64,000 nt of DNA from NCBI GenBank assembly GCA_903822005.1, contig CAIJNL010000036.1:1-64000 (forward strand). Reading direction: 5' to 3'. The position numbers were made by a program, and so were the translations under genes. This document shows positions 39,470 to 63,610 of this stretch, one piece after another. The stretch is from an uncultured Nitrospiraceae bacterium. GTDB taxonomy: Bacteria > Nitrospirota > Thermodesulfovibrionia > Thermodesulfovibrionales > Dissulfurispiraceae. The notes under the pieces are model-generated. The model searched no databases, was not told the origin of the DNA, and saw only the letters and a program-made list of their open reading frames with translations. Every line of letters starts with the position of its first letter. The stretch's first letter is position 1.

Positions 39470-39505
39470 CATAATAATTAGGGTTTGTGAGTGCCAGGAG
39501 ACTTT

Positions 39506-39952: not shown

Positions 39953-40022
39953 TAAGGGTTGAAATATAAGGGTTGCAATTCGCAGAAGACCGGGGAATTG
40001 CGGTGAAGCTATTGGACCAAAA

Positions 40023-45679: not shown

Positions 45680-45725
45680 TTCTCAAAACCTGTACCACGT
45701 GGCATATGCATTAAAAGTGTGAGAG

Positions 45726-47484: not shown

Positions 47485-47521
47485 ATGACTATGGCATATC
47501 CCGCTGGAATGAGGGCCTCGA
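47323..47521 (+). repeat. Duplicated promoter-leader, copy 1
   Basis: This region of about 199 bases is an imperfect direct copy of 55677-55874. Matching parts include the promoter, the palindrome, the leader core (CCCAGTCCG, then TTTCAGGGCGA, then AAAGCGTTATCATCC) and the first codons of the gene behind it up to GAGGGCCTCGA. By eye about four of five bases agree. The copy drives the operon that begins with the first flavoprotein. Confidence 0.85.
47325..47366 (+). promoter_or_regulatory. Promoter with overlapping palindromic operator (copy 1)
   Basis: TTGACA at 47325-47330, an 18-base spacer and TATAGA at 47349-47354 form the promoter. A palindrome ATTGTATA-N6-TATACAAT (47345-47366) covers the -10 box, so a bound repressor would block polymerase. 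The same arrangement recurs at 55679-55720, and a degenerate half-site version lies at the gntR promoter. The HutC-type GntR protein at 53053-53814 is the likely binder. Confidence 0.7.
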
Positions 47522-49140
47522 TCGAAAAGGTTGAGCAGCGCAGAAAAGACCGTCTGAATAAATATGAGTTCCCCCGACTCAGTCCGGAGGACAAGGCGGC
47601 GCTTCTTAAGGATTATCACCCGGATTTTCGGGACGGGGACAAGGTTAACCTGCAGTTCGGGGTCAACAAAGGGGAGCGCGTCCCCAAGGTGCTTGGGGAG
47701 GTAATAGAGTCTCAAAGCCGGCTGAATCTGACTTCAGTGGATTTAAGCAGACCGGACCATAAAACCGACGTTCTGGTCATTGGGGGCGGAGGCGGTGGTG
47801 TCGCAGCAGCGCTGACGGCCCATGAAAACGGCGCGAAGGTCATTCTTGCTACAAAGTTGAGATTGGGAGATTCAAATACCATCATGGCGGAAGGCGGGAT
47901 CGCGGCAGCCTCCCTGCCGGAAGATTCCCCCGCTGCCCACTATATAGACACCATGGTCGGCGGCCGGTTCAAAAATATCCCTGATGTTGTTGAAGCGCTG
48001 GTAAACGAAGCTCCATCGATCCTGGAATGGCTGACGTCGTTAGGGGCCTGTTTTGACAGGACGAAAGATGGAAGTTATTTCAATCATATGCCGGCCGGGC
48101 ATGCCTTTAAACGGTCGCATTCGATCAAGGACCTGACGGGCCTCGAACTGATGCGCGTCCTCGGTGATGAGATACGCAATAAGGATATTCAAGTCCTGGA
48201 ATTCAGTCCAGCGGTCGAGTTGATTTTGGACGCAGATGGGCAGTGTGCCGGTGCAATCCTGGAAGATCTGGATACAGGCAGGAACATTGTTGTTGAAGCG
48301 GGAGCAGTAATTATGGCGACAGGCGGTATGGGGCGCCTGCATCCGAATGGATTTCCTACTTCCAATCATTACGGCGCTACCGCCGACGGAATCGTCATGG
48401 CCAGCCGGGCCAGGGCGAAACTGTTGTACATGGAATACATTCAATACCACCCTACGGGAGTTGCGTGGCCGGAACAAATGCTCGGTCTGCTTCTTTCCGA
48501 AGCGCTGAGAGCCGAAGGAGCACATGTGGTCAATTGTGATGGCGAGCCATTCGTCAATCGCCTGGAAACACGAGATGCGCTCTCCGCTACGATTCTCCGC
48601 GAATGCGGGCCCCGGAGAAAGGGTGTCGAGACTCCCACCGGTACGATGGGGGCATGGCTGGACACGCCGATGATCGATTTGATGGGAGGCAAAGGCACCT
48701 TCATGCGCCGGTTTGCCGGGATTCATCACCGCTTTGTAAAATTTGGAATTGATCCAACCCAGGAGCCTCTTCTGGTCTATCCCACCCAGCATTATCAGAA
48801 TGGAGGCGTTGCCATCAATATCTATGGCCAATCCAACGTTCCCTTTCTTTATATGGCTGGTGAAGTCGCCGGAGGGGTACATGGTCATAACCGGCTTGGG
48901 GCAAATTCATTGGTTGATATTTTCGTTTTCGGCCGCCGGGCCGGCAGACACGCGGCGGAACATTTCCGGAAAACGGCCGCAACAGGTTTGACTCTTGAGC
49001 ATGTCAAGGCCCACAACGAGGAAATTGCGGCGCTCGGAATCTCGTCGCAGCGTAAGTCACCCATGCTTTTGCCGGACTACCGGTTTGAAAAAGCATTAAC
49101 CAGCACACAATACGTTAGCGAAATTGTCGAGGCGGAATAA
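47491..49140 (+). CDS. Fumarate reductase/succinate dehydrogenase-type flavoprotein
   Basis: The 549-residue FAD protein resembles FrdA/SdhA. An N-terminal extension of about 85 residues precedes the FAD-binding VIGGGGGGVAAAL. Next come MAEGGIAAA, the active-site HPTG, SEALRAEGA (the Arg that donates a proton in FrdA) and HYQNGG-x-GEVAGGVHGHNRLGANSL. The His that binds FAD covalently in SdhA/FrdA is absent (SNTIMAEGG), so FAD is noncovalent. The substrate could be fumarate or a related unsaturated acid. ATG 47491 has AAGGGAG at eight bases; ATG 47485 is too close. It overlaps the Fe-S gene by one base (TAATG). Confidence 0.88.
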   Translation: MAYPAGMRASIEKVEQRRKDRLNKYEFPRLSPEDKAALLKDYHPDFRDGDKVNLQFGVNKGERVPKVLGEVIESQSRLNLTSVDLSRPDHKTDVLVIGGGGGGVAAALTAHENGAKVILATKLRLGDSNTIMAEGGIAAASLPEDSPAAHYIDTMVGGRFKNIPDVVEALVNEAPSILEWLTSLGACFDRTKDGSYFNHMPAGHAFKRSHSIKDLTGLELMRVLGDEIRNKDIQVLEFSPAVELILDADGQCAGAILEDLDTGRNIVVEAGAVIMATGGMGRLHPNGFPTSNHYGATADGIVMASRARAKLLYMEYIQYHPTGVAWPEQMLGLLLSEALRAEGAHVVNCDGEPFVNRLETRDALSATILRECGPRRKGVETPTGTMGAWLDTPMIDLMGGKGTFMRRFAGIHHRFVKFGIDPTQEPLLVYPTQHYQNGGVAINIYGQSNVPFLYMAGEVAGGVHGHNRLGANSLVDIFVFGRRAGRHAAEHFRKTAATGLTLEHVKAHNEEIAALGISSQRKSPMLLPDYRFEKALTSTQYVSEIVEAE

Positions 49141-49838
49141 TGGACAAAAAAAACGTGAAAATGATACCGATCTACGTAATGGGGAAAAAGTTTGAGGTAC
49201 CCGAAGAACTGACCATATTGAAGGCACTCGAGTTTTCCGGTTTTACAATTACTCGAGGCTGCGGCTGCCGGGGCGGCGTCTGCGGGGCCTGTGCCACAGT
49301 ATACCGGAGAAAAGGCGATTATCGCGTTATCCCTGGTCTCGCATGTCAGACCGTCGTGGAGCCGGAGATGAGCCTTGTTCAACTGCCATATATTTCCTCG
49401 CGGAGATCGTCCTACGTCGTATCGGAGGTTGATCCGGACAGCATGGACATCGTAAAGACGTATCCGGAGCTCATGCGCTGCATGGGCTGTAATACCTGCA
49501 CCAAGTCCTGTCCCGTGAACATCCAGGTCATGAACTATATTTCCGCGACCATCCAGGGCGACCTGAAGCAGGTAGTGGAATTGTCGATCGAGTGCGTGAT
49601 GTGCGGGATGTGCGCGGCGCGTTGTCCGGCTGAATTGTCGCCTTACAATATCGCTCTGTTCGTGCGGCGGCTGTACGGCGCGCATAAACTGCCGAAGTCC
49701 CCTGAATTGGAAAAACGCGTTTCGGACATCGCAAATGGCGTTTATAATGCCGAGATAGCAGAGCTAAAGATAACCGATACAAAAAAGCTCCAGGGCATCT
49801 TCAATGAAATGCAGGCAAAGAAGGGCGCTTCTGTATGA
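49140..49838 (+). CDS. Iron-sulfur subunit with 2Fe-2S and two 4Fe-4S centres
   Basis: Electron-transfer partner of the flavoprotein. The 232-residue protein has an N-terminal ferredoxin-like domain with CGCRGGVCGAC plus a later Cys (GLACQ), then two cluster motifs CMGCNTCTKSCP and CVMCGMCAARCP. The second domain has two 4Fe-4S-type motifs, as in ferredoxins, and not the 4Fe-4S/3Fe-4S pair of SdhB. It is coupled on both sides, overlapping the flavoprotein and the hydratase beta genes. Confidence 0.88.
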   Translation: MDKKNVKMIPIYVMGKKFEVPEELTILKALEFSGFTITRGCGCRGGVCGACATVYRRKGDYRVIPGLACQTVVEPEMSLVQLPYISSRRSSYVVSEVDPDSMDIVKTYPELMRCMGCNTCTKSCPVNIQVMNYISATIQGDLKQVVELSIECVMCGMCAARCPAELSPYNIALFVRRLYGAHKLPKSPELEKRVSDIANGVYNAEIAELKITDTKKLQGIFNEMQAKKGASV

Positions 49839-50389
49839 GAAACGAAAAGGACGATACCGGGACAGGCCAGACAAAGCCGATTCAGATCAATATTCCCATC
49901 TCAGAAGAGGTCATTCGAGGCCTCAAGGTCGGTGATTTTGTGGAAATCAACGGCACGATTCTCTGCGGCAGAGATGCGGTACTGCCGAAGATGGTCAAGA
50001 TGGCTGAAGCCGGAAATGACAAGACGCTGATGACGATGCTTAGAGGTTCCGTGATCTTTCATACCGCCGTCAGCATTGCCGGAATCGGACCGACCTCCAG
50101 CAATAAAGTGGAAATAGAGGGCAGCATACCGGGTCTGTCCAAAGCCGGCGTGAAAATTCATTTGGGCAAGGGAGCCCTGAGTGCGGACACGATGGCAGCG
50201 CTCCAGACTTATAATTCGGTCTTCGCTATCACGCCTCCCACGACGGCGTATTTCTCGTCAAAGATTATCTCGCAGAAAGTCGCCATGTTTCCGGAAGAGG
50301 GCATGGAGGCGCTTTATGAGGTTACAGTCGAAGGGTTTCCCGCCATTATCGCCATTGCTCACGGGGAATCAATTTTTACCAATACATAG
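49835..50389 (+). CDS. Class I fumarase-type hydro-lyase, beta subunit (TtdB/FumA C-terminal-like)
   Basis: The 184-residue protein matches the small subunit of two-part class I hydratases (fumarase, L-tartrate dehydratase, mesaconase). Visible segments are GDFVEINGTILCGRDAVLPKM, FHTAVSIAGIGPTSSNKVE and TTAYFSSKIISQKVAMFPEEGMEALYEV. It swivels to close the active site formed with the alpha subunit. It lies before the alpha gene, the reverse of the usual order. Substrate not known. Confidence 0.87.
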   Translation: MRNEKDDTGTGQTKPIQINIPISEEVIRGLKVGDFVEINGTILCGRDAVLPKMVKMAEAGNDKTLMTMLRGSVIFHTAVSIAGIGPTSSNKVEIEGSIPGLSKAGVKIHLGKGALSADTMAALQTYNSVFAITPPTTAYFSSKIISQKVAMFPEEGMEALYEVTVEGFPAIIAIAHGESIFTNT

Positions 50390-50404
50390 AACGCAGAGGA
50401 TGAC

Positions 50405-51286
50405 ATGCTAACCATAGAAAAAATCCGAGAAGGTGTTGGTAAGTGTCTTGTAAAATCCGGAACGACATACCGGGCTGACCAGTTTGAGATTTACAAGAAC
50501 GCCATAGCAAAAGAGACAAATAAAAACGCCAAATGGGTCCTTGAACGCCTGGTGGAAAACGCGGAAGTCGCCGGGAAGCGGGGTTTCCCGCTGTGCGATG
50601 ACACCGGCATTCCGCATTTGTACCTTGAAGTCGGTGACGACCTTGATCTGCCGAAGGGCTGGCTTTCCGCCATCCACGAGGGAGTGGCGCAGGGGCTTAA
50701 GACTATGCCGGGGCGGCCCATGGCTGTCAAAGGCAATGACATCGAACGGGTGGAGCAGTCCGTCGGCCTCTCTGATGACCCGGCGGATGTTCTGCCAGTC
50801 CCGGCAATCACAAAACCGGTGCCGGGAAACCGGTTGTCTGTCACGGTCCTGCTGTTCGGCGGAGGACCTGAGATCCGGGCAAAAACCTACAGAGTTTATC
50901 ATAAACGAAGTATTAAAACAGTCCTGGAAGAAGGCGCCAGTTGGATGGCTGCAGAAGTTAAAAACTTGGGGTGCACACCCTGCACGATTGCAATGGGAGT
51001 TGGGAGGTCGCATACCGAGGCCAGCATGCGAATGGTTGAGGCAATGAGACACGGTGACTTGAGGAAACAATCCGAATGGGAACGGAAGATCACAGATATT
51101 GTCAATGCCGGGAAGGTCGGCCCTCTCGGGCTTGGGGGGGATTATTCTGTCATGGGCACGTTTCTCAAGATCGGGCCCCTGCGTGCCAGCGGCATCAGGG
51201 TGGTGTGCGCGAGGCCATGCTGTTGCGTGGAGCCGAGGCGTGCGACAGTTTCATTCGATCCGGCCGGGGCAATTACGTTTGATTAA
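50405..51286 (+). CDS. Class I fumarase-type hydro-lyase, alpha subunit (4Fe-4S)
   Basis: The 293-residue protein is the cluster-bearing subunit. Candidate cluster cysteines occur in PLCDDTG, GCTPCTIAMGVGR and ARPCCCVEPRR; the usual forms are CQDTG and CPP followed by a Gly-rich GG stretch. The second and third motifs are thus unusual, pointing to a substrate other than fumarate. GCAGAGGATG precedes ATG 50405. It follows the beta gene by 15 bases, within the flavoprotein operon. Confidence 0.85.
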   Translation: MLTIEKIREGVGKCLVKSGTTYRADQFEIYKNAIAKETNKNAKWVLERLVENAEVAGKRGFPLCDDTGIPHLYLEVGDDLDLPKGWLSAIHEGVAQGLKTMPGRPMAVKGNDIERVEQSVGLSDDPADVLPVPAITKPVPGNRLSVTVLLFGGGPEIRAKTYRVYHKRSIKTVLEEGASWMAAEVKNLGCTPCTIAMGVGRSHTEASMRMVEAMRHGDLRKQSEWERKITDIVNAGKVGPLGLGGDYSVMGTFLKIGPLRASGIRVVCARPCCCVEPRRATVSFDPAGAITFD

Positions 51287-51332: not shown

Positions 51333-52268
51333 ATGGATGACGATTTAAAACTCAATATGCTGCACAAACAACATATACTTGATGATCCATGGAGTCCTGT
51401 GGCGCGCTTCCGCCTGCTCTCCAGGGGCGTGAATGAAAATGTGCGTTTGATGGAGTCCTCCCTGGTCGCAGGTGATTGCGCTTGTCTCGCATGCGGGAAT
51501 TGCGTCGACGCCTGCCCAGTATTCAAAATCAATGCCGGGATGATGTTCGATCAGAACCAGAGGTCCTCCATGTCTTTGGAGAACCACGTGCAGGACGAAT
51601 GCCGTCGCTGTTACCGATGTGTCCAGTCCTGTCCGCAGGTCGGGAAGGACAGGAAAGAATACACCGCTGGGTTCAGAAGAACTGAGAAAATCGTTCATCT
51701 CCTGGCGGCCTTCACGATCGTTGCACTTGCAGGTACAGGAGTAAGCCATCATCATTACGGCGCTGTTCTGGGTGCGACCGATGCGAATATACTTAAATAC
51801 GCTCACAGAACGATCGGTATCTTATCTCTCGGTGTTCCGTTTCTCTATTATAAATTTGATGTCGTCCATTTCAGGAGAACGATAAAAAAGATTTTCAGCT
51901 GGGAAAGCAGCGACCGGGAATGGATGAAAAATAAGTTTGCCAATATCTTTAAAAAGAGCAGCGATAAGAAAATCCCGAGAAATGAATTCAATCCGTGGCA
52001 GAAGATATGGTATCTGTTCATCATCTCCTTTTTCCCCGTGCTATATTTGTCGGGCCTGAGTGCCATTGTTTTCGGCGGCTCCATGAACAGTACAAGTCTG
52101 TTCAAACTGAACGTATTCCATATGGCGTTTGCGCTTCCCTTTGATATCATGCTGTTTATACATATTTATATGAAATATATCCGGGAGTGGGTGCGAGACA
52201 GCTTAAGACTATTTAAAAACTACAGGGAAACAAAATCACTTGTTTACACAAAGAACATGCCTTATTAA
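51333..52268 (+). CDS. Membrane Fe-S and cytochrome b-type protein (TcuB/CitB-like architecture)
   Basis: The 311-residue protein has an N-terminal soluble part with two 4Fe-4S motifs, CLACGNCVDACP and CRRCYRCVQSCP. About four membrane helices follow (about residues 128-290) with conserved His candidates for heme b (SHHH, YAHRT, VFHMAF, FIHIYMKY). The layout resembles TcuB, the quinone-linked partner of tricarballylate dehydrogenase, and formate dehydrogenase gamma-type subunits. It probably connects the flavoprotein/Fe-S pair to the quinone pool. GGTGAGG precedes ATG 51333. Confidence 0.8.
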   Translation: MDDDLKLNMLHKQHILDDPWSPVARFRLLSRGVNENVRLMESSLVAGDCACLACGNCVDACPVFKINAGMMFDQNQRSSMSLENHVQDECRRCYRCVQSCPQVGKDRKEYTAGFRRTEKIVHLLAAFTIVALAGTGVSHHHYGAVLGATDANILKYAHRTIGILSLGVPFLYYKFDVVHFRRTIKKIFSWESSDREWMKNKFANIFKKSSDKKIPRNEFNPWQKIWYLFIISFFPVLYLSGLSAIVFGGSMNSTSLFKLNVFHMAFALPFDIMLFIHIYMKYIREWVRDSLRLFKNYRETKSLVYTKNMPY

Positions 52269-52303
52269 AACCAATAGCATTAATGGTGTGAGCGTTGAGC
52301 GCT

Positions 52304-53044
52304 ATGTTTAAGGTGCATGACCGCGAAATATCTGCAGAGATCTATGTGCTGGCTGCCGGGGCTGTTGAGGCTGTCGTCCGTGATTTGGTCGGGAGCTTCG
52401 AGAAGGAAAGCGGCCATACAGTAAAGATCACCTATGCGCCAGTGGGTGCGCTCCGTGACAAGGCATTTGAGGGTGAACCCGCTGACGTTATCATTGTTAC
52501 TCCGGCAATTATTGAGAAACTTCAAGCGCGGGGTCTTGTGCGGTCTGGAACCCGGACAGATCTCGGGCGGTTAGGCGGGGGCATAGCCGTCAGGAAAGGC
52601 GCCCAACGTCCGGCAATCGCAACGCCCGAAGAACTCAAACTTGCGCTTTTGACGGCTCAGGTCATCTATTACGCTGATCCGAAAATCGCCACTGCTGGTG
52701 CACATCTCCTGAGCGTCGCTGATCGCCTCGGTATCGGCGGTGAAGTGCGCCAAAAAGGCCGGACAGCCGGCGGCGGCAAGGCTGCGATGGAGCTCTTGGC
52801 CCGGTCCTCAGGGGATACGATCGGATTGGCCCAGATCAGCGAAATATTGTCAGTTCCGGAAGTCGAATTGGTCGGTCCGTACCCTGACGAACTGCAGAAC
52901 ATGACAACATATAGCGGGATACTGCTTGAGCGAACGATGCAATCTGAGCCTGCTATGGCGTTTTTGAAATTTCTGACCAGCCTGCCGGTACAGATGAGGT
53001 TTGTAAAGCAGGGCTACGAGTTATTGGACCGCGACGGGAAATAA
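52304..53044 (+). CDS. ModA-like substrate-binding fold protein without signal peptide; possible aconitate isomerase
   Basis: The 246-residue protein has the periplasmic molybdate-binding (ModA) fold: VLAAGAVEAVVRDLVGSFEKESG at the start, YADPKIATAGAHLL, GQKGR-type loop and GPYPDELQNMTTYSGILL near the end. No signal peptide is present, so it should stay in the cytoplasm, and no modB or modC is nearby. The known aconitate isomerase of Pseudomonas belongs to this fold family, and the operon encodes other carboxylic-acid enzymes; the isomerase role is inference. The start may be ATG 52304 or TTG 52295. Confidence 0.72.
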   Translation: MFKVHDREISAEIYVLAAGAVEAVVRDLVGSFEKESGHTVKITYAPVGALRDKAFEGEPADVIIVTPAIIEKLQARGLVRSGTRTDLGRLGGGIAVRKGAQRPAIATPEELKLALLTAQVIYYADPKIATAGAHLLSVADRLGIGGEVRQKGRTAGGGKAAMELLARSSGDTIGLAQISEILSVPEVELVGPYPDELQNMTTYSGILLERTMQSEPAMAFLKFLTSLPVQMRFVKQGYELLDRDGK

Positions 53045-53052
53045 ACGACTGG

Positions 53053-53814
53053 CTACGATGCGTGCTGGATCCAGCGCCTTCCCTTGGTTGATTTATCACT
53101 TTTTAACCTGACTACGTATTTATAGTGATCGCTGTTATACGACGTTTGAACCAATTCGATCGGTTTTTTGTTTTTTGCATACATTATTCTTTCAACAAAA
53201 AGTATGGGCGAACCAGGTGCAATTTTCAATTTGTCTGCCGTCTCCGGGTCTGCAAAAGACGCCTCGATGGTTTGTAAGGCTTCCTCCACGACAATGCCGA
53301 TATCCTGCTCTATAATTTTCAGTAAAGGTTTTTTCAACAGCTCCTTTTCGGTGATTTTGAGCCCAATTTCGAGCGGAAGATAATTGATGGTATATGCAAA
53401 TATTTTATCATGCAACAACCGGACTCTTTTTATGCGAATTACCTCATCATTCTCCAGCTCCAGTTTTTCTTTGACTGATCTCGTGCTATTGATTTTATCT
53501 ATAATGGCAGATTGGGTTGTTGTTCTGGATACTTCATAGAAAAGACCATCTATAAATCCGGTAAAGTCGAGGCCAAGGCTTCTGATAAGGTTTTCGTCTT
53601 TCGTAACAAAAGTTCCTTCGCCCCGTTTCCTTACGAGAAGGCCTTCCTGCACTAAAAGAGAGAGACCCTGACGAACGGTCAATCGGGTAACTTTAAAAAG
53701 CTCGGCCAACTCGTTTTCAGACGGGATTTTATCACCGTAGCTATATTCCTTATTGGCTATCCAGTCTTTAACGGTATTTCTGATTTGATAATAAACAGGA
53801 ATTCCAGTGGTCAT
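53053..53814 (-). CDS. GntR-family transcriptional regulator, HutC subfamily
   Basis: The 253-residue protein has an N-terminal winged helix-turn-helix (about residues 5-72: GDKIPSENELAELFKVTRLTVRQGLSLLVQEGLLVRKRG split across helix 2 and 3) and a C-terminal UTRA ligand domain (about 90-240). It is convergent with the operon on its left and divergent from the second flavoprotein gene. Its own promoter resembles those of the two island operons, so it probably controls all three and itself, responding to an island metabolite. Confidence 0.9.
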   Translation of the reverse strand: MTTGIPVYYQIRNTVKDWIANKEYSYGDKIPSENELAELFKVTRLTVRQGLSLLVQEGLLVRKRGEGTFVTKDENLIRSLGLDFTGFIDGLFYEVSRTTTQSAIIDKINSTRSVKEKLELENDEVIRIKRVRLLHDKIFAYTINYLPLEIGLKITEKELLKKPLLKIIEQDIGIVVEEALQTIEASFADPETADKLKIAPGSPILFVERIMYAKNKKPIELVQTSYNSDHYKYVVRLKSDKSTKGRRWIQHAS

Positions 53815-53964: not shown

Positions 53965-55605
53965 ATGGACTACCCTGCTCAGTCCGTGGTCTGTGACATT
54001 GCAGTGATTGGCGGAAGCTCTGCTGCGCTGGTTGCCGCGCTGGAGGCACGAAAAGCGGGCATGAGAGTCCTGGTGGTCACGAAAGGACTCGTCGGCCGTG
54101 GTGGAAATACCATTGTGTCGGGTGCCGGGTTCGCCGCCGTTCTTCCGGGAGCAAACCAGAAGGATTCATGCGAACAATTCCAGGCCGATATCCTTGCAAG
54201 CGGCAAAGGAATCAATCATGAACACCTGGTGCATGAGCTGGTCGAGCATTCAGGGACCGCCATTTTAGATCTCGAACACTATGGCGTCAATTTTTTTAAA
54301 AGTAACGGTGACTTTGTCCGGAGGAAACCGCCTGGGCATTCTTACCCGCGCCAGATTCCAACTGTGAACGATGCTGGGAGCTACCATACCCGGGGGCTTA
54401 CCATAACCATCCCGCTTCGTGAGGCGGCAGAACGGGCCGGCGTCGATTTTCTGGAGAAGACAGCTGTAATTGAGTTATTATGTGACTCAGAAAGAGGAGT
54501 TTACGGTGCTGTTGGCATCAACACCCGAATGACGGAACTGATACGTATCAGCGCCAAATCGGTCATACTGGCCACGGGCGGTGCGGGCATGATCTATGAG
54601 CGTACCAACAACACAACAGATGTTACGGGTGACGGATACGGCTTGGCTCTGGAAGCGGGCGCCCGGCTGGTTGACATGGAATTTGTGCAGTTTTATCCGA
54701 CCATGGCGTTCAAGCCGGTAAAAGTTCCGATATCAAGCCCCCTATTCGGAGACGGAGCGGTCCTGCGCAATAAAAACCTGGACCGCTTCATGACCAAGTA
54801 TGATCCTGCCGGCGACATGGCGACAAGGGATATCATGTCCCGGGCCATCTTCTCTGAAGTAAGCTCTGGCAACGGGGTAGAGAATGGAGTTTACATAGAC
54901 TGCTCCGCTGTTCCTGCCGAGCTTTTCGAAAAAAAGCACAAGGCCATGCTGAAATATCTCCTGGCGAACAACATAAATCCTCAAAAAGATTTGTTGCTGA
55001 TCTCACCTTCGACCCATTTTTTTATGGGCGGGATTAAGCTCGACGGCTCTTTAAGTACGGGCGTTCCCGGCCTGTTCGCGGCGGGTGAAGTGGTCGGCGG
55101 CCTGCATGGTGCAAACCGCATTTCCGGTAATGCCCTGACCGAGACGGCAGTATTCGGCAAAATTGCCGGGCAAATGGCGGCAGAACACGCATCAACGATC
55201 CGCAGCATCAAGCTGTCGGATAAAAAAAGTGCTCATGCGCCGGGCAGGCGCGAGGGAGACCTGCGTGAAATAAAATCGGCCCTGCGACGAACGATGTGGC
55301 AAAATGTTTCGGTGCAGCGGTCGCGCGATTCGCTGGAACGCGCCCTTTGTGAAATCGAAGATTATCGCCGGGAGCTTCTTGGACTTGCCGCGGACGGACT
55401 GCGAAATCTCGCGGCCTGGGTTGAACTCAAAAGAATGCTGACCGTGTCCGAAGCCGTGACTCGCTCGGCGCTTCTGCGCGACGAGAGCAGGGGCAGCCAT
55501 TTCCGTACTGATTTCCCGGATTCGGATGATTCGAGATGGATCGGAAATATTGAAGTCGGGCAACATGAGAATGAACTGCGCCTTGCCGTGAATCCGAAGA
55601 AATAA
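53965..55605 (+). CDS. Second FAD-dependent fumarate reductase/aspartate oxidase-like flavoprotein
   Basis: The 546-residue protein has the FAD_binding_2 fold and the helical C-terminal domain of SdhA/NadB proteins. The dinucleotide motif is altered (VIGGSSAALVAA), and the position of the active-site HPTG reads FYPTMA, so the catalytic His is missing. The SE-x2-R-x-EG motif is replaced by FGDGAVLRN. HFFMGGI and GEVVGGLHGANRISGNALTE are kept. No covalent-FAD His is seen (GNTIVSGAGF). It may be a dehydrogenase for another acid. ATG 53965 has GGGAGGGG upstream; the frame is open to 53785 without support. Confidence 0.85.
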   Translation: MDYPAQSVVCDIAVIGGSSAALVAALEARKAGMRVLVVTKGLVGRGGNTIVSGAGFAAVLPGANQKDSCEQFQADILASGKGINHEHLVHELVEHSGTAILDLEHYGVNFFKSNGDFVRRKPPGHSYPRQIPTVNDAGSYHTRGLTITIPLREAAERAGVDFLEKTAVIELLCDSERGVYGAVGINTRMTELIRISAKSVILATGGAGMIYERTNNTTDVTGDGYGLALEAGARLVDMEFVQFYPTMAFKPVKVPISSPLFGDGAVLRNKNLDRFMTKYDPAGDMATRDIMSRAIFSEVSSGNGVENGVYIDCSAVPAELFEKKHKAMLKYLLANNINPQKDLLLISPSTHFFMGGIKLDGSLSTGVPGLFAAGEVVGGLHGANRISGNALTETAVFGKIAGQMAAEHASTIRSIKLSDKKSAHAPGRREGDLREIKSALRRTMWQNVSVQRSRDSLERALCEIEDYRRELLGLAADGLRNLAAWVELKRMLTVSEAVTRSALLRDESRGSHFRTDFPDSDDSRWIGNIEVGQHENELRLAVNPKK

Positions 55606-55874: not shown

Positions 55875-57254
55875 ATGGAAACTGCTAAAAAAACGGATAA
55901 CAGTATTTGCGACGCATTTGCCGAGTTTTCCGTCCAGACCAGGTACGAAAAAATTCCGTCTGAGGTTATTCATCAGGCAAAACGGTGCATCCTGGATCTT
56001 TTTGGCGTTGCACTTGCCGGAAGCGGTGTGGGGATCGCGCCCTGTCTGTCTGCTCTCTTTAGGGATATGGGCGGTACGCCGGAGGCCACCTTCTTTGGAG
56101 AGCGTGGCAAGTTTCCCGCCTTAAACGTAGCCCTTGTGAATGCGGCCAAAGGACATACCCTGGATATGGATGACGGTCACCGTTATGCCAATGCACATCC
56201 CGGTGTTCCGCTTATTCCTGCGGCTGTGGCGCTTGCCGAGCGTGATGACAGGTCCGGGAAGCAGCTGATCGAAGCGGTAGTCGTTGGTTATGAAGCGTTC
56301 ATTCGCGTGGCCCGCGCCATCAACCCGAAACATTTAGAGAGAGGGTTTCATACGACCGGTACCGTCGGATCGCTTGGAGCTGCCGCTGCCTGCGCAAAAA
56401 TATTACAACTAGGACAAAAAGAAACGGCTGATGCAATCTCCATAGCCGGTTTGCAGAGTGCAGGGTTGTTGGAAGTTTTGAAAACCGGACAAATTATGAA
56501 ACCACTTCATCCGGCAAAAGCGAGTCACGCCGGCCTCCTCTCAGCGCTCCTGGCCGGCATGGGTAATCAAGGGCCGGATCCAATGTTTGAAGGCAACAAC
56601 GGTTTCCTGAAAGCATATGCCGGGGTTTCTGCATCACCAGAAATTACTGCAGACCTGGGAAAACAATTTGAAATTATAAACGTATATTTTAAGCTTCATG
56701 CAGCATGCCGCCATGTTCATCCGGCCCTTGATGCCGTAGGAATCATCATGGGGAAACACAAGGTGCCGATCGAAAAAATCACCAGTATAAAGGTTTATAC
56801 TTATTCCATAGCAAACAAATTAACGGGACAAATTCGAAAAGTGGAAAATGAATTAGAGGCCAAATTCAGCCTGCCAATTTCTATCGGCCTGATGCTCAGA
56901 TATGGCACAGCCGGTGTCGATCAGTACGATATGACGTTCATCAAAGATAAAATGGTGCAAAATATGGCCGACAAAGTTGAGATTATCGTCGAACCAGAAC
57001 GGGATGCAATCTATCCGAAGCAAAGAGGCGCACGTATCTGCATCGAGACGCCTGACCGGATTTTTTCGGAAGATGTGCCTGTTCCCAAAGGAGATCCGGA
57101 GAACCCCTTTTCGGATGGCGAACTCAGGGAGAAATTTCTGTCGAATGCAAAAAAAACCATGTCTGAAAAAAGCGCTTTGGAACTGAGCGTGAAGATATTC
57201 GACATGGAAAAATATTCTGTTCGCGAACTGATCAGTTGCATGAGCGGCAGCTGA
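55875..57254 (+). CDS. MmgE/PrpD family protein
   Basis: The 459-residue protein has the family segments VALVNAAKGHTLDMDDGH and HPGVPLIPAAVALAE near residues 85-125, ERGFHTTGTVGSLGAAAA, KPLHPAKASHAGLLSALLA and HAACRHVHPALDA. The family includes 2-methylcitrate dehydratase, cis-aconitate decarboxylase and iminodisuccinate epimerase, all acting on polycarboxylates. The catalytic Asp/His/Lys positions look kept (DMDDGH, HPAKASHAG, CRHVHP). Next to the other genes, a role in aconitate or itaconate chemistry is plausible. ATG 55875 has GGAGGG at seven bases; ATG 55845 is in frame but weaker. Confidence 0.87.
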   Translation: METAKKTDNSICDAFAEFSVQTRYEKIPSEVIHQAKRCILDLFGVALAGSGVGIAPCLSALFRDMGGTPEATFFGERGKFPALNVALVNAAKGHTLDMDDGHRYANAHPGVPLIPAAVALAERDDRSGKQLIEAVVVGYEAFIRVARAINPKHLERGFHTTGTVGSLGAAAACAKILQLGQKETADAISIAGLQSAGLLEVLKTGQIMKPLHPAKASHAGLLSALLAGMGNQGPDPMFEGNNGFLKAYAGVSASPEITADLGKQFEIINVYFKLHAACRHVHPALDAVGIIMGKHKVPIEKITSIKVYTYSIANKLTGQIRKVENELEAKFSLPISIGLMLRYGTAGVDQYDMTFIKDKMVQNMADKVEIIVEPERDAIYPKQRGARICIETPDRIFSEDVPVPKGDPENPFSDGELREKFLSNAKKTMSEKSALELSVKIFDMEKYSVRELISCMSGS

Positions 57255-57391
57255 GCCTGTAATAGCCGCAGCAGGAGCAGGACTGGAATGTTCTGTCGGC
57301 GGGAAGGCTTACATTGTTCGTCCCTGCCGGATAAGCGCTTGGTGGTTCTAGCGTAGCTCTGATAGTACAGATAATTGAAAGGAGAGTGGTC

Positions 57392-58390
57392 ATGAGAATT
57401 CGGGATTTCATTGCGATGGCGGTTGCAGGGTTGATTGTGTTTGGAGCAGCTGGGTGTAAAGATAAAGCCGCACCGGGCGGAAAGCCTGCCCCGGGGCAGC
57501 AGACGCGCATTACGATAGCTACGGCGGGGACGACGGGTGTTTTTTATGCGTACGGCGGGGCACTGGCCGCAGTCATCAGCAAGTACGTTCCTGGAACAAC
57601 GGTGACGGCACAGGCGACCGGCGGTTCGGTTGAGAATATGAAGCTGCTGGGGAATAAGCAGGTGGATCTTGCAACGACCTCGGCCGATGTTGCCTACAAT
57701 GCATTTTACAATTACAAGGACTCCAAGTATTTTAAGGAAAAAGTTGAAGCCAGGGCGCTTTTCAACATGTATGGAGAGCCGCTTCACATTCTGGTCCGTG
57801 CAGAAAGCAGCATAAAAGGTGTATCGGATTTGAAAGGGAAGCGTGTGGTTGTGGGTTCTCCAGGCTCCGGTACAGAGATGAAGTCACGGGTCGTGCTTCA
57901 GATGATGGGAATAGAGTATAAGGACTTCAAGCCCGAGTTTTTATCGTTCGGGGAAGGGACCGAGGCGCTGAAGGACAAGACGGTTGATGCCGCTTTGCTG
58001 GGCGTACATTATCCGGCACCGGCAGTGGTTGAGCTTTCCATGCACAATTCCATCCGGCTGCTCGCCCTGTCCAATAGTGAAATTGACAAGATGGTGAAAG
58101 GCAGTTCGATTTTCGTGAAGGCGGTGATCCCCGGGCGCACCTACAAAGGGGTGGATGTGGACACGCCGACAGTCTCTGTGCAGTGTTTGGTGGTTGGCCG
58201 TGCAGATATGTCTGATGAGATGGCTTACAATATCGTGAAGACTGTATTCGAGCATAAAGACGAACTCAACCAGATGCACAGTGCATTTAAGGAAGCCATC
58301 CTGGCCGAAGCGAGCAACACCGTGATACCACTTCATCCGGGAGCGATCAAATATTACAAGGAAAAAGGAGTGTATAAGGAACGTAAATAA
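57392..58390 (+). CDS. TAXI-type TRAP transporter solute receptor, lipoprotein
   Basis: Extracytoplasmic receptor of a TRAP transporter. The 332-residue precursor has a lipoprotein signal with the lipobox ending at C22 (FGAAGC). The TAXI family pattern follows: ITIATAGTTGVFYAYGGALA, VTAQATGGSVENMKLL, DLKGKRVVVGSPGSGTE and a Tyr/Lys-rich end. GGAGAG precedes ATG 57392. Known TAXI substrates include glutamate and dicarboxylates; context suggests an organic acid here. It is followed by its membrane partner after a spacer with hairpins. Confidence 0.92.
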   Translation: MRIRDFIAMAVAGLIVFGAAGCKDKAAPGGKPAPGQQTRITIATAGTTGVFYAYGGALAAVISKYVPGTTVTAQATGGSVENMKLLGNKQVDLATTSADVAYNAFYNYKDSKYFKEKVEARALFNMYGEPLHILVRAESSIKGVSDLKGKRVVVGSPGSGTEMKSRVVLQMMGIEYKDFKPEFLSFGEGTEALKDKTVDAALLGVHYPAPAVVELSMHNSIRLLALSNSEIDKMVKGSSIFVKAVIPGRTYKGVDVDTPTVSVQCLVVGRADMSDEMAYNIVKTVFEHKDELNQMHSAFKEAILAEASNTVIPLHPGAIKYYKEKGVYKERK

Positions 58391-58499
58391 GGCCGGCATG
58401 GCCGGCAGTGTAAAAAAACCGGGCATGCAAGACCAAGCAAATAATCTGACGAGATGCCCGAATATTATTTCTAGTTTCTGTTCTGGATACTTTCCGCAG

Positions 58500-58534
58500 G
58501 GAGATCTTGTGGGTGTTGTGCCTGCAAGATCTCC
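58500..58534. promoter_or_regulatory. Intercistronic hairpin between TRAP receptor and permease genes
   Basis: GGAGATCTTG (58500-58509) pairs perfectly with CAAGATCTCC (58525-58534) around a 15-base loop. Upstream in the same 175-base spacer are CGGGCAT/ATGCCCG (58420-58460) and a GCCGGC repeat pair (58392-58406). No U-run follows, so termination is weak at best. Such hairpins commonly let the receptor be made in excess of the permease. Confidence 0.5.
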
Positions 58535-58565
58535 AGCGAAAAACATTAGTACGGGGGACGGTTAA

Positions 58566-60476
58566 ATGCAGGAAGAGATATCCGCACACAAAGGAAAATC
58601 CAAATTCAAAGAAGTAACAATGGCAATCCTCATCATATCCGTGGCATTTTCGATCTTTCAGATCTACACGTGTGCACATGGACTTATGACTGCAGTGCTT
58701 CAAAGAAGCATCCATCTGACTTTTGCAGTCGTTCTTGTTTTCCTTTTTTTTCCTGCAATAAAAAACTCTCGTGCAACGTATTTCATCGATATTCCGCTCA
58801 TGTTCATTTCCATTGCAGGCACCTCTTACCTGTATTTGACATTCGATGATCTGCTCTATCGCCTTGGTTCTCCTACCGAATGGGACCTTATATTCGGCGT
58901 AGCCACGATACTCATCCTCCTTGATGCGACACGCAGGGTTGTAGGCTGGGCTATAGCGTCGCTGGCCATTGCTTCTCTTGCGTATGCATTTTTTGGAGAC
59001 CAGCTCGGTGGAGCATTTGGGCACCAGGGGCAATCTTTTGAGCGAATAGTCTCCCAGATGTACCTGACTACAGAAGGTATCTTTGGCGTGCCCCTGGGTG
59101 TCACCGCCACCTATCTATTCCTCTTCCTGCTGTTCGGCTCGGTTCTTGAGAAATCAGGGGTAGGCGCCCTTTTCATCAACCTGGCGCAGGCCCTTGCCGG
59201 CAGATTTCAGGGAGGTCCTGCCAGAGTTGCCATTATTGCGACCGCATCTATCGGGAGTATTTCGGGCAGTCCCGTTTCCGATGCTGCAACTACAGGGGCA
59301 TTTACCATCCCCCTCATGGTAAAAATTGGCTACCGGCCGGTGATAGCAGCAGCCATCGAAGCAGCGGCCTCATGCGGCGCATCTCTGCTGCCTCCGGTGA
59401 TGGGTGCGGGAGCCTTTGTCATGGCGGATATTACCGGTGTTCCGTATAGCACGATCCTGACACATGCCGTTATACCGGGTTTTCTTTTTTACATTGCCTT
59501 GATGTTTGTTGTGGGTAACGAAGCGAGGAAGTTGAAAATCATGGGCATGCCCAAAGATCAGCTTCCGGGCCTTAAGGACGCGCTGTTGAAAAGCCTGCGT
59601 CTTCTTATCCCCATAGTCGTTCTTGTGTTCTTTCTCGCCGTAATGCATACGTCACCAGTACGCGCGGCCCTGTATTCTCTTGTCGTGATGCTTGTTACGA
59701 CTTTCGTATACAATCTTGTAAAACCGCAGGCAAAAGTGCTATTAAAAGATCTGGCAGAAGCTCTGACTGAGGCGCCCAGAAAAGTGCTGGTTGTTGCATG
59801 TGCCTGCGGAACCGCTGGTATCATCATAGGGATGCTCGGATTGACCGGATTGGGCCTAAAAATGTCAGGACTATTGGTGGAGGCTGCCGGCGGTAACCTG
59901 GCCCTGCTCATGGTATATTCCATGTGTATTTCGCTGACCCTTGGCATGGGGCTTCCACCCACCGCCTGCTACATCATCATGGCAGTTACAGTAGCGCCGA
60001 GTTTTGTACTATTGGGCGTTCCCCTTTTGGTGGCCCACTTCTTTATCTTCTACTGCTGCTGCCATGCCCCGATTGAACCACCATTGGCTTTGGCAGCGTA
60101 TACAACTGCGGGAATTGCGGGCTGCAACCCTATTACCACAGGACTGCATGCCTTCCGTATCAGCCTGTCCGGGTTTATCCTGCCCTTCATATTCATTTAC
60201 AAAAACGCACTTCTGGGTTTTGGTGAATGGTATATGATCATCGAAGCATTTTTATCGGCGCTGATAGGGGTCTGGGCCCTGTCTATCGTCGTGGTGAAAT
60301 ATTATAAGGAACCGGTGAGCTATTTCTGGCAGGCAGTCCTTACCGCGGGTGCGCTTATGCTCATGGTCAATGACGTCACGTTGAATGTTATCGGATTTGC
60401 CATGGTGGCGGCGTTTTCTGCCCTGAATACGTCGTTGTTCAGGCGGAAAACAAAGGATGCGGTTGCCCTTAGTTAA
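58566..60476 (+). CDS. TRAP transporter fused permease (small and large subunits)
   Basis: The 636-residue protein joins the small (DctQ-like, four helices, about residues 15-150) and large (DctM-like, about twelve helices) TRAP membrane parts, the form paired with TAXI receptors. Family segments include GGPARVAIIATASIGSISGSP, AAIEAAASCGASLLPPVMGAGAFVMA split over the core, and TLGMGLPPTACYIIMA. It uses an ion gradient for uptake. The gene starts at ATG 58566, 175 bases after the receptor gene. Confidence 0.93.
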   Translation: MQEEISAHKGKSKFKEVTMAILIISVAFSIFQIYTCAHGLMTAVLQRSIHLTFAVVLVFLFFPAIKNSRATYFIDIPLMFISIAGTSYLYLTFDDLLYRLGSPTEWDLIFGVATILILLDATRRVVGWAIASLAIASLAYAFFGDQLGGAFGHQGQSFERIVSQMYLTTEGIFGVPLGVTATYLFLFLLFGSVLEKSGVGALFINLAQALAGRFQGGPARVAIIATASIGSISGSPVSDAATTGAFTIPLMVKIGYRPVIAAAIEAAASCGASLLPPVMGAGAFVMADITGVPYSTILTHAVIPGFLFYIALMFVVGNEARKLKIMGMPKDQLPGLKDALLKSLRLLIPIVVLVFFLAVMHTSPVRAALYSLVVMLVTTFVYNLVKPQAKVLLKDLAEALTEAPRKVLVVACACGTAGIIIGMLGLTGLGLKMSGLLVEAAGGNLALLMVYSMCISLTLGMGLPPTACYIIMAVTVAPSFVLLGVPLLVAHFFIFYCCCHAPIEPPLALAAYTTAGIAGCNPITTGLHAFRISLSGFILPFIFIYKNALLGFGEWYMIIEAFLSALIGVWALSIVVVKYYKEPVSYFWQAVLTAGALMLMVNDVTLNVIGFAMVAAFSALNTSLFRRKTKDAVALS

Positions 60477-60521
60477 GCGCTCTGATGAGGCTGATTTAAG
60501 CATAACAATGACAAGCAGAAC

Positions 60522-60573
60522 GCGGTACCAGCAAAGGCTATGGAGCCTATGTTGGTACCGCTTAAAAAAGCGG
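60522..60573. promoter_or_regulatory. Nested hairpins between TRAP permease and hydrolase genes
   Basis: GCGGTACCA (60522-60530) pairs with TGGTACCGC (60553-60561), and an inner AGGCT/AGCCT stem (60535-60548) extends the fold. A competing small hairpin CCGCTT-AAAA-AAGCGG (60558-60573) shares the right arm, so the two are mutually exclusive. No U-run follows. It may protect or attenuate the transcript. Confidence 0.45.
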
Positions 60574-60641
60574 AAAGATAATCACTGAATCATTGCGCGG
60601 TGTCGCCGATTGTTTCTACAGAGAAAACAGGATTGAGCGAA

Positions 60642-61406
60642 ATGCAAATTGAATATAAATACATACTGTCTTCCAAAGGAAATATTGCGACTGCAATTCA
60701 TCATCCTTCTACGAGAACAGATAAACTGGCTATTCTTTGTCCGGGCTACCTCGACACAAAAGATTATGCTCACCTGGTTAAATTGTCTGATGATCTTGCG
60801 GCGTGCGGATATACAGCTGTCCGATTTGATCCCACAGGCACGTGGGAAAGTGGCGGCGATATTTCCGATTATAACGCAACTCAAACTCTATCAGATGTAA
60901 GAACAATTCTGGAACATATGATACTGGAAGGGAATTATAAGCATATTCTTCTCGGAGGCCATAGTTTGGGCGGACTCATTGCAATGGAATATGCTTCGCG
61001 AGATCCGAGAATTTCGGTTGTCCTGGCCCTCATGTCGCCATATTCCCTGAGAAGACCTATCTATAAAGACGGCATTGAAAAGTGGGAAAACAGAGGCTGT
61101 CGCATTTCAAGGAGACAAATACCCGGAAGTACTGAAAAAAAAGAATTTCGGGTTCCGTATAGCAATGCCGAAGACCGTCTGAAATATAATGCCATAGACA
61201 GCATCAGGCGTTTCCGAGGGCTCTTGATTCTTATTGGCGGAGAGCTGGATGACAGGGTTTTCACGGACGATCTCAGGCTTATTTATGATAGTGCGAATGA
61301 GCCGAAAAAACTCATCATAATAAAAGGAATTGTGCATAATTACCGTCACAACGACAGGGATATAGATATTGTCAATCAGAATATCCTGGCCCATTTGCCG
61401 GCGTGA
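60642..61406 (+). CDS. Alpha/beta hydrolase
   Basis: The 254-residue cytoplasmic protein has an alpha/beta hydrolase fold with nucleophile Ser in GGHSLGG, a likely acid Asp in GGELDDRVF and the His in KGIVHNYRHND. It resembles serine aminopeptidase-like and acyl-esterase members; no signal peptide. ATG 60642 follows GGATTGAGCG; a GTG at 60600 in frame would add 14 residues. Position before the CoA genes could suggest a thioesterase or lactonase step, but the fold is too common to say. Confidence 0.82.
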   Translation: MQIEYKYILSSKGNIATAIHHPSTRTDKLAILCPGYLDTKDYAHLVKLSDDLAACGYTAVRFDPTGTWESGGDISDYNATQTLSDVRTILEHMILEGNYKHILLGGHSLGGLIAMEYASRDPRISVVLALMSPYSLRRPIYKDGIEKWENRGCRISRRQIPGSTEKKEFRVPYSNAEDRLKYNAIDSIRRFRGLLILIGGELDDRVFTDDLRLIYDSANEPKKLIIIKGIVHNYRHNDRDIDIVNQNILAHLPA

Positions 61407-61430
61407 TAAATTTAAGGAGGTTGTACCTTT

Positions 61431-62369
61431 ATGAGAACCGACTATATAAATGAAGTAGTCCGCAGGTCACGGCTGATTATGCCCGCCAATGCCCCCAAGT
61501 TCACCGGCAAGGCCTTCTCGCGCAATGCGGACGCAGTTGTTCTCGACCTTGAAGACAGCGTTCCTGTATCAGAGAAGGCCGCCACACGCAAACTTATTAA
61601 GGAACTGATACCAAACGTTGCCAGGGGCGGCAGTGATGTCTTCGTGCGGGTAAACAATACGTCCGGGATGCTGAATGATGACATCACGGCATCGGTATGG
61701 CCGGGGCTTGCCGGGTTTATTATCCCTAAAGTCGAAAGCGCCGATGAGATTGGCCGGATAGAACAATTAATCGTGAAGCTTGAAAAAGAACGGAACATTT
61801 CGGATGGAACAATTGTTATATCGGTGCTGATAGAATCCGGAAGGGGTTATCTGAATATGGCGCATATCGCCGGCGCGAGCGACCGGGTTGATTCGCTTAC
61901 CCTCGGCAATGAGGACTTCCTCAGGGAGATGGGCATAACCGAAAGTGCTGACACATATCAAGGTTTGTTAGTCGCCAGGATGCAGCTTCTCTTCACTGCG
62001 CGCGCTTACGGGAAGATGCCGATGGGGCTTCTCGGAAGTCTTGCGAATTACGGCGACCCCGACGCATTCGAAAAGAGCGCGGTGCTGGCGTACAGGCATG
62101 GCTTTCTTGGCGCAAGCTGCATACATCCCGGCAATGTCGAAGTATTGAACATGGCATTTTCGCCAGGGGTGGAAGAGGTCGAACGCTCCGAAAAAATCGT
62201 TTTTGCGATGAATGAAGCCATCGCGGCCGGAAAAGCCTCAACTTCGTTCGAAGGCAAGATGATCGATTATGTGCACCTGGACAGGGCAAAGCAGCTGCTC
62301 TCGCGCAGTGCGAGGATAGCCGCGTTTGAACAAAAGAAGAAGCTGGCAAGAGAAGGCGCATCAAGTTGA
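61431..62369 (+). CDS. HpcH/HpaI aldolase family, CitE-like acyl-CoA lyase
   Basis: The 312-residue TIM-barrel protein has the CitE/malyl-CoA lyase pattern: RSRLIMPANAPKF near the start (an Arg that binds the substrate carboxylate), ADAVVLDLEDSVP and FVRVNN, the metal-ligand Glu in IESGRGYLNMA and LTLGNEDFLREMG, and the C-terminal CIHPGNVE. Family members cleave citramalyl-CoA, malyl-CoA or citryl-CoA. AAGGAGG precedes ATG 61431. It overlaps the ribosome-binding region of the CoA-transferase gene, so the two are likely coupled. Confidence 0.88.
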   Translation: MRTDYINEVVRRSRLIMPANAPKFTGKAFSRNADAVVLDLEDSVPVSEKAATRKLIKELIPNVARGGSDVFVRVNNTSGMLNDDITASVWPGLAGFIIPKVESADEIGRIEQLIVKLEKERNISDGTIVISVLIESGRGYLNMAHIAGASDRVDSLTLGNEDFLREMGITESADTYQGLLVARMQLLFTARAYGKMPMGLLGSLANYGDPDAFEKSAVLAYRHGFLGASCIHPGNVEVLNMAFSPGVEEVERSEKIVFAMNEAIAAGKASTSFEGKMIDYVHLDRAKQLLSRSARIAAFEQKKKLAREGASS

Positions 62370-62386
62370 GAAAAGGAGAAAATATC

Positions 62387-63610
62387 ATGGCTGACAATAA
62401 CGCAGGGAAAGTACAGGATCAGAAAAACGGATCGCAGATATCAGGGCCGCTCACAGGCGTGCGCTTGCTTGACCTGAGCGCATACATTGCGGGACCCTAC
62501 GGATGTTCGTTGCTTGCCGACATGGGCGCCGAGGTCATAAAGATCGAGCCGCCTGATGGAGACAATCTTCGCAAATATCCATCTACCCTCCCGTCCGAGA
62601 GCCGCGCGTTCCTCGGAGTAAACCGCAGCAAGTTAGGATTAGCACTTGATCTGAAGCAGCCTGACGGTCAGGCGGTCCTGATGAGGTTGATCAAAAAGGC
62701 CGATGTGCTCGTGCATAACTTCCGCCCGAGCGTGCCGCCGAGGCTCGGTATTGATTATGACAAGCTGAAGGAAGTCAATCCGCGTCTTATCTACTGCGCC
62801 GTTACAGGCTATGGCGAGACCGGCCCGCTAAAGGACAACGCGGGATTAGACCAGGTCGTGCAGACGATGACAGGCATGTGTTCGATGCAGGGCCCGGCAG
62901 GGGGGCCGCCGCAGATACTGTATGGTTCAGTAGTCGATTTTTACGCTGCCGCCCTGGTGGCCGCAGGCGTCTCGGCCGCTCTATATGAGCGCGAGCGCAG
63001 CGGGCTCGGTCAATATGTCGGAGTTTCATTGCTCAGGAGCGCGCTGACCATGCAGTCGACCCGCCTTATTTGGGCTGAAGGGGAAAGTCGCGATGCCTTT
63101 AGAGACATGCGTTCGGGCGGCGTAACCGGCATACATCCTGCAGGCGAGGGCTATCTCTACCTCTCAGCAAATACTCCGCACTTCTGGAAAGCGCTCTGCG
63201 AAAAGACAGGGCTCAAAGAGCTTCTTGAAAATGAGAGATATGATACCGTAAAAAAGCGTAACCAGCACGCAGGAGAGCTTGTGCCGAAGCTGCATCAGGC
63301 GCTTCAGGCGAAGAGCGCCCTCGAATGGGAGGCTTTATTCGGCCAGGAAGTGCCATGCGCGGCAGCAAGGACAGTGGAAGACATGTTCGACTTCCCGCAG
63401 GTGAAGGCGGAAAACATGATCAAGACATTTGAGCATCCCAAGGCGGGAAAGTACCAGGGCTTCATGTATCCAGTAAAGTTCGGCAGGACGCCCGGCCCGG
63501 AACCTTTTTCAGCGCCGGATTTCGGTCAGCATTCCTCTGACGTGCTGACGCAGGATGGATGGACCGATGAGGAGATCGCGAAGATGCGTTCGGACCGCTC
63601 CGTTCTTTGA
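62387..63610 (+). CDS. CaiB/BaiF family (class III) CoA-transferase
   Basis: Transfers CoA between carboxylic acids. The 407-residue protein has LTGVRLLDLSAYIAGPYGCS near residue 22, ADMGAEVIKIEPP, the conserved NFRPSVPPRLGIDY and the nucleophilic Asp at about 155 (NAGLDQVVQTMTG). AAGGAG precedes ATG 62387. With the CitE-like lyase just upstream, it probably activates a hydroxy- or unsaturated dicarboxylate (for example citramalate or itaconate) for cleavage; such pairs are known in itaconate and 3-hydroxypropionate pathways. Confidence 0.9.
   Translation: MADNNAGKVQDQKNGSQISGPLTGVRLLDLSAYIAGPYGCSLLADMGAEVIKIEPPDGDNLRKYPSTLPSESRAFLGVNRSKLGLALDLKQPDGQAVLMRLIKKADVLVHNFRPSVPPRLGIDYDKLKEVNPRLIYCAVTGYGETGPLKDNAGLDQVVQTMTGMCSMQGPAGGPPQILYGSVVDFYAAALVAAGVSAALYERERSGLGQYVGVSLLRSALTMQSTRLIWAEGESRDAFRDMRSGGVTGIHPAGEGYLYLSANTPHFWKALCEKTGLKELLENERYDTVKKRNQHAGELVPKLHQALQAKSALEWEALFGQEVPCAAARTVEDMFDFPQVKAENMIKTFEHPKAGKYQGFMYPVKFGRTPGPEPFSAPDFGQHSSDVLTQDGWTDEEIAKMRSDRSVL

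Follow-up and report, generated by a model that had tools for sequence, protein, structure and literature searches.

The first 64,000 nucleotides of contig CAIJNL010000036.1 (assembly GCA_903822005.1, an uncultured Nitrospiraceae bacterium), hereafter called the window, contain an island of about 14 genes at approximately 47.5–63.6 kb, in which two operons flank one GntR gene. This block was apparently acquired, and it probably serves uptake and breakdown of a small acid of the aconitate/itaconate family to acetyl-coenzyme A (acetyl-CoA) and a keto acid such as pyruvate. More specifically, we tentatively propose, as a possible reading short of a probable one, that the two operons together would carry out anaerobic breakdown of aconitate, tricarballylate or an itaconate-type acid to acetyl-CoA and pyruvate. 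From the gene set, its near-absence from relatives, the catalytic residues that are kept or changed and the recurrent partner genes, all of which are read directly from the DNA, we infer the steps of the pathway and its substrate.

In the proposed pathway, a TAXI-type TRAP transporter would import trans-aconitate, tricarballylate or a close analogue. A flavoprotein, FAD2, would desaturate the saturated form, and a ModA-like protein would isomerise trans to cis. The MmgE/PrpD protein (hereafter MmgE), acting with one base, would decarboxylate cis-aconitate to itaconate or dehydrate a related acid. An altered class I iron-sulfur (Fe-S) hydratase would then add water to the unsaturated acid in its free form, giving a hydroxy acid of the citramalate type, onto which CaiB would transfer CoA, and the CitE-like lyase would give acetyl-CoA and a 2-oxo acid, which would be pyruvate if citramalyl-CoA is cleaved. 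A second flavoprotein, FAD1, an Fe-S subunit and an Fe-S/cytochrome b protein would trade electrons with the quinone pool.

Gene content and origin of the island

The upstream operon consists of FAD1, the Fe-S subunit, the beta and then the alpha subunit of the class I hydratase, the Fe-S/cytochrome b561 fusion and a solo ModA-like gene. In the second operon, FAD2 comes first, followed by the genes from MmgE to CaiB. This operon is divergent from the gene for a GntR/UTRA regulator (53053..53814, domain match), which is on the minus strand; all other genes of the island are on the plus strand. Promoter and terminator scans of the sequence yielded about as much as shuffled sequence did. With the genome itself excluded, a match to the lyase was found in one of 59 sampled relatives, with 27% identity, and a strong match to the window MmgE was found in none of 246 genomes of the phylum. 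The G+C content is mostly 0.50–0.54 within the island and 0.46–0.50 upstream. This near-absence from relatives and the difference in G+C fit acquisition of the island.

The enzymes match their families clearly, far beyond chance, and none of them reaches an equivalog cut-off; the exact reactions given here are putative. The families are familiar, but the active sites of at least three enzymes are altered, which points to an unusual substrate. The first-pass annotation had named an MmgE/PrpD protein, a TAXI receptor, a fused TRAP permease, a hydrolase, a CitE-like lyase and CaiB, and family matches recovered every one of them in place. Its overall frame, in which an acid is imported, processed by MmgE, linked to CoA and cleaved by a CitE-type enzyme, is well supported, while its mesaconate detail is weakened and its aconitate theme is strengthened by the ModA-like gene. 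The class I hydratase genes (49835–51286) and the ModA-like gene (52295–53044) lay outside the interval that it covered, and the latter was not mentioned there.

Probable CoA transfer and cleavage

The final reactions of the route are likely to be transfer of CoA to a 2-hydroxy di- or tricarboxylate and its cleavage by a CitE-type enzyme. The genes for the CitE-like CoA-ester lyase (61431..62369) and the CaiB/BaiF (type III) CoA-transferase (62366..63610) overlap by 4 bases. CaiB matches CaiB/FRC-type families at about 1e-60, under the equivalog cut-offs, and keeps the catalytic Asp169 of Frc. The lyase matches the CitE model TIGR01588 at E=1.5e-48 with 165 bits, under the equivalog cut-off of 443, and the RipC model with 99 bits (cut-off 375); the island carries neither CitD nor CitF. 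Four Negativicutes genomes, including Pelosinus propionicus and UBA1444, carry orthologs of the lyase with 64–66% identity, which adjoin CaiB or CitF; the closest of them adjoin CitF in three genomes. This CitF is over its curated cut-off in both genomes scanned, and an acyl-carrier subunit was not seen nearby.

In the tree, the window lyase and the Negativicutes orthologs form one clade (support 100/100). The next-outer lyases, from Nitratireductor, Thalassospira and a Sinorhizobium plasmid, are co-encoded with CaiB transferases, and E. coli CitE, the genome's own CitE/CitF pair and CLYBL are on the opposite side; the branches of this tree are long, and its deep placement is a guide, not proof. 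The locus on the Sinorhizobium plasmid further encodes methylaspartate ammonia-lyase together with a class I hydratase, a gene set that fits conversion of mesaconate via citramalate to citramalyl-CoA. The position of the window lyase on this side agrees with the first-pass proposal of CoA transfer followed by CitE-type cleavage. Citramalyl-CoA lyase is, from tree position and neighbours, a candidate identity only.

The genome's own CitE/CitF pair is located on another contig (C42, 7834–10244); its CitF is over the cut-off, and no acyl-carrier gene was recognised alongside. A parallel arrangement was observed on a Dehalococcoidales contig (L047, 2470–9050), in which genes for MmgE, SucCD-like CoA ligase subunits, a ferredoxin, a CitE-like lyase (36% identity) and a FAD1 homolog (52%) are adjacent, and the ligase replaces CaiB.

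The MmgE/PrpD protein

MmgE (55875..57254) contains both Pfam domains (PF03972, E=3e-66; PF19305, E=5e-35) and the shared residues H85, D88, H99, H150, K198 and K266, and thus belongs to the superfamily. Its start at 55875 is better than the start of the longer open reading frame at 55845 because a GAGGGAGG motif stands before 55875. The MmgE/PrpD proteins of pseudomonad itaconate clusters are methylsuccinate isomerases with a proposed His and Tyr pair as in IDS epimerase, and in cis-aconitate decarboxylase His alone is proposed as the catalytic base (PMC12290011). The second catalytic base, which is Tyr145 in IDS epimerase and also Tyr in methylsuccinate isomerase, is Leu in the window MmgE, and the pairwise alignment is gapless there. 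Tyr occupies this position in 28 of a set of 45 proteins, and Leu was seen in the window protein only; a 20-protein set was also aligned. The Leu argues against an isomerase; decarboxylation or dehydration, as the first-pass annotation had suggested, would fit. The second base is likewise missing from cis-aconitate decarboxylase. Methylsuccinate isomerase was therefore dropped as the leading identity, and cis-aconitate decarboxylase activity is a candidate role.

The sister clade of the window MmgE (joint support 97) consists of a second MmgE from this genome and of Negativicutes proteins, and every member has the Tyr. Two of these Negativicutes genes (L163 and L165) adjoin TtdAB-type Fe-S hydratase genes, and a third such pair (L164) was not placed in the tree. 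The recurrence of this pairing in three Negativicutes loci supports the idea that MmgE and the Fe-S hydratase of the window act together.

Next to the second MmgE of the genome (contig C25, 10152–14424) are an adenylosuccinate-lyase-like protein and a transporter. This block recurs in Pelosinus and in another Negativicutes genome, where the latter two proteins are 75–76% and 66% identical, which suggests a second exchange with Negativicutes. In addition, a TcuA-like flavoprotein (39% identity over 284 residues) is encoded beside an MmgE from Chloroflexota (L168, 5957–8920) that clusters with cis-aconitate decarboxylase.

The class I hydratase and the proposed hydration step

The class I Fe-S hydratase is encoded by a beta gene (49835..50389; PF05683, 1e-23) and an alpha gene (50405..51286; PF05681, 4e-47). 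The alpha subunit is at most about 30% identical to anything found. It keeps the cluster cysteines, but CDDTG replaces CQDTG and Arg replaces His 12 residues before the third cysteine. In the beta subunit, Lys replaces Arg in GPTTSxRM. Thus, the family domains and the three cysteines of a class I fumarase or mesaconase are present, and the residues expected at CQDTG, H334 and R471 are not. In what we take to be the numbering of Leishmania fumarase, checked by the spacing of the cluster cysteines, the changes are Q134D, H334R and R471K, and residues 134, 334 and 471 are presumably substrate contacts in that enzyme. None of the three changes was seen in any other aligned sequence, including E. 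coli FumA, tartrate dehydratase and the probable Sinorhizobium mesaconase, so a plain fumarase or mesaconase role is doubtful. Plain mesaconase was set aside for this reason. Of the first-pass suggestion that a class I hydratase might supply citramalate from mesaconate, the presence of the gene stands, and the plain mesaconase function is weakened.

An itaconyl-CoA hydratase had not been seen in the first pass, and this holds genome-wide, as no MaoC-type match was over the cut-off. The best match to methylaspartate ammonia-lyase in the genome has 22 bits (cut-off 27), and methylaspartate was therefore set aside as a precursor. The lack of both indicates that hydration probably takes place on the free acid, via the class I hydratase. 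If the substrate of the lyase is citramalyl-CoA, hydration has to fall to something other than these two, for which the hydratase of the island, acting ahead of CoA transfer, is the obvious candidate.

The ModA-like protein

The solo ModA-like protein (52295..53044; PF13531, 6e-38) has no leader peptide and no ABC partner. It is 26–33% identical to other solo ModA-like proteins (E down to 4e-33) and 21% identical to E. coli ModA (E=7e-7). Seven of the solo relatives directly adjoin the tricarballylate symporter TcuC (656–763 bits, cut-off 445), and one more is located in a TcuA/TcuB locus. Four other relatives examined lack a TcuC or TcuAB context; one of the four has an aconitase-family gene nearby. 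Aconitate isomerases of the PrpF type have been described in published work. The solo relatives beside TcuC or TcuAB fit an aconitate isomerase, and we regard the window protein as a candidate for this activity. The TcuC-adjacent genes are found on plasmids of Cronobacter, Salmonella, Acinetobacter, Sphingomonas, Paraburkholderia and Duffyella, where they are annotated merely as substrate-binding proteins.

Predicted electron transfer and uptake

FAD1 (47485..49140) is a TfrA-like flavoprotein of the fumarate reductase/succinate dehydrogenase type with an N-terminal extension. It keeps all five catalytic residues of FrdA and has about 50% identity to Dehalococcoidia and Ilyobacter proteins. 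Its partner Fe-S subunit (49140..49838) has 40–50% identity to FAD1-linked Fe-S proteins. In Dehalococcoidia this module is accompanied by class I hydratases of the standard kind, and in Ilyobacter by aspartase and Hdr-type genes. Beside it in the island, a two-cluster ferredoxin domain is fused to a b561-type cytochrome (51333..52268); this may be an unusual way of anchoring a complex of the fumarate reductase type in the membrane. Only the Fe-S part, unfused, is found beside FAD1 in Dehalococcoidia, as a small protein with about 40% identity, and the fusion had no match among plasmids. A TcuB identity of this membrane electron carrier was rejected, as only the Fe-S motif aligns (E=0.01), and a TcuA identity of FAD1 or FAD2 is not supported by family matches.

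FAD2 (53965..55605, start behind GGGAGG) is TfrA/NadB-like by family match. In the alignment R287, H355 and R390 are kept, and the changes H232Y and E245S indicate a substrate other than succinate. The TAXI-TRAP transporter of the first pass is confirmed by the solute receptor (57386..58390; TIGR02122, 314 bits, cut-off 84) and the fused permease (58566..60476; TIGR02123, 616 bits, cut-off 321), both far over their cut-offs. An alpha/beta hydrolase gene (60600..61406; PF12146, 3e-14) lies between the permease and the lyase.

Alternative explanations

Several points weigh against the proposed aconitate-type pathway. TcuA is not among the best 25 curated matches of FAD1 or FAD2, and FAD2 is not a TcuA by family. 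In its tree, which holds a single decarboxylase sequence on a long branch, the window MmgE groups neither with cis-aconitate decarboxylase, as the first-pass annotation had it, nor with PrpD, and another residue could substitute for the missing Tyr. The ModA-like protein is nearer the tricarboxylate-linked subgroup than ModA, but at about 30% identity, without the leader that those proteins have and in a poorly supported tree. Its assignment as an aconitate isomerase goes back to the enzyme of Pseudomonas WU-0701, which is reportedly of the solo ModA-like type. Searches with the lyase, hydratase alpha, FAD1, FAD2, MmgE and the ModA-like protein did not find a second copy of the whole cluster that would confirm joint action of all its genes. 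We also know of no precedent for a class I enzyme that hydrates free itaconate. A version in which the altered hydratase acts directly on free itaconate (or citraconate or aconitate) and, with a one-base MmgE decarboxylase and CaiB/CitE, would form an anaerobic pathway from aconitate via itaconate and citramalate to pyruvate without itaconyl-CoA hydratase is, in our view, unlikely.

The island might instead be made up of two operons that lie side by side without a common function, with a fumarase/fumarate reductase module upstream and, downstream, genes for import and cleavage of a different acid; we consider this rather unlikely. The GntR gene lies between them, they are separate transcription units, the upstream set resembles the conserved fumarase–fumarate reductase operon of Dehalococcoidia, and Ilyobacter pairs FAD1 with aspartase. 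However, FAD1 and the Fe-S subunit have about 50% identity to their Dehalococcoidia counterparts, but the hydratase no more than about 30% to the fumarases there, and its pocket changes are unique. Furthermore, the MmgE/Fe-S hydratase pairing recurs elsewhere, and the Dehalococcoidales locus joins MmgE, CoA ligase, CitE-like lyase and a FAD1 homolog. It is unlikely that the operons act on methylsuccinate and mesaconate at the free-acid level, with MmgE interconverting methylsuccinate stereoisomers, a flavoprotein oxidising methylsuccinate to mesaconate, the class I hydratase making (S)-citramalate, and CaiB and the lyase finishing the route. Such a route has to contend with the Leu in place of the isomerase Tyr, with hydratase changes that are absent even from the probable Sinorhizobium mesaconase, and with a cluster that lacks the acyl-CoA dehydrogenase of the published one; it also leaves the ModA-like gene without a role. 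It gains from the pseudomonad clusters with a methylsuccinate-isomerase MmgE, which also have a CoA-transferase and citramalyl-CoA lyase (PMC12290011), from mesaconate hydration being common among class I hydratases (PMC4682846), and from the relation of the window lyase to the lyase of the methylaspartate-pathway locus. A citrate-type route is improbable. Here MmgE would hydrate aconitate to citrate, CaiB would make citryl-CoA and the lyase would give oxaloacetate and acetyl-CoA, while the hydratase and FAD1 would run malate, fumarate and succinate as an electron sink. CitE is the best curated match of the lyase, its closest orthologs adjoin CitF in three genomes, and FAD1 retains the residues of fumarate reductase and, in Dehalococcoidia, is encoded together with fumarases; yet the clade of the lyase stands away from both E. 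coli CitE and the genome's own CitE/CitF pair, and the hydratase lacks the standard fumarase residues.

Relation to known systems

Like the island, the pseudomonad itaconate/methylsuccinate cluster (Ict, Ich, Ccl, Mcd, Msi) combines an MmgE/PrpD protein, a CoA-transferase and a CitE-superfamily lyase, with acetyl-CoA and pyruvate as proposed products (PMC12290011). In contrast to that cluster, the island lacks a MaoC-type hydratase and acyl-CoA dehydrogenase and has a free-acid Fe-S hydratase and flavoproteins of the succinate dehydrogenase/fumarate reductase type, its MmgE lacks the isomerase Tyr, and its transporter is of the TAXI-TRAP type. The methylaspartate/mesaconate locus of Sinorhizobium meliloti pC (L043) shares CaiB, a related CitE-like lyase (38% identity) and a class I hydratase, but differs in encoding methylaspartate ammonia-lyase, in the standard residues of its hydratase and in having no MmgE or TRAP. 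Tricarballylate/trans-aconitate utilisation systems (tcuABC with a solo ModA-like gene) share a ModA-like protein, putatively of one subgroup, and the combination of a flavoprotein with an Fe-S/cytochrome b protein, whereas FAD1, FAD2 and the Fe-S/cytochrome b protein of the island are not TcuA or TcuB by sequence, and TRAP takes the place of TcuC. The Dehalococcoidia fumarase–fumarate reductase operon (e.g., L092) likewise has FAD1, the Fe-S subunit, a small Fe-S protein and both class I hydratase subunits in one operon, but with a standard-residue hydratase and a small Fe-S protein that is not fused to cytochrome b.

If the proposed aconitate-type pathway is true, it would add an anaerobic variant at the free-acid level to the known itaconate and methylsuccinate routes. 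Two large families in which most members are uncharacterised, MmgE/PrpD and the class I hydratases, would also gain testable members with changed catalytic residues, and solo ModA-like proteins would be linked to the use of tricarboxylates in a lineage distant from Pseudomonadota, the home of the relatives found.

Surroundings of the island

The left flank of the island consists of hopanoid genes, with HpnI over its cut-off. They belong to a hopanoid-type cluster at 35997–46874, just upstream, in which a squalene-hopene-cyclase-like protein was identified by eye. On the other flank, genes for a response regulator, FtsH, NadA and Obg were identified, also by eye.

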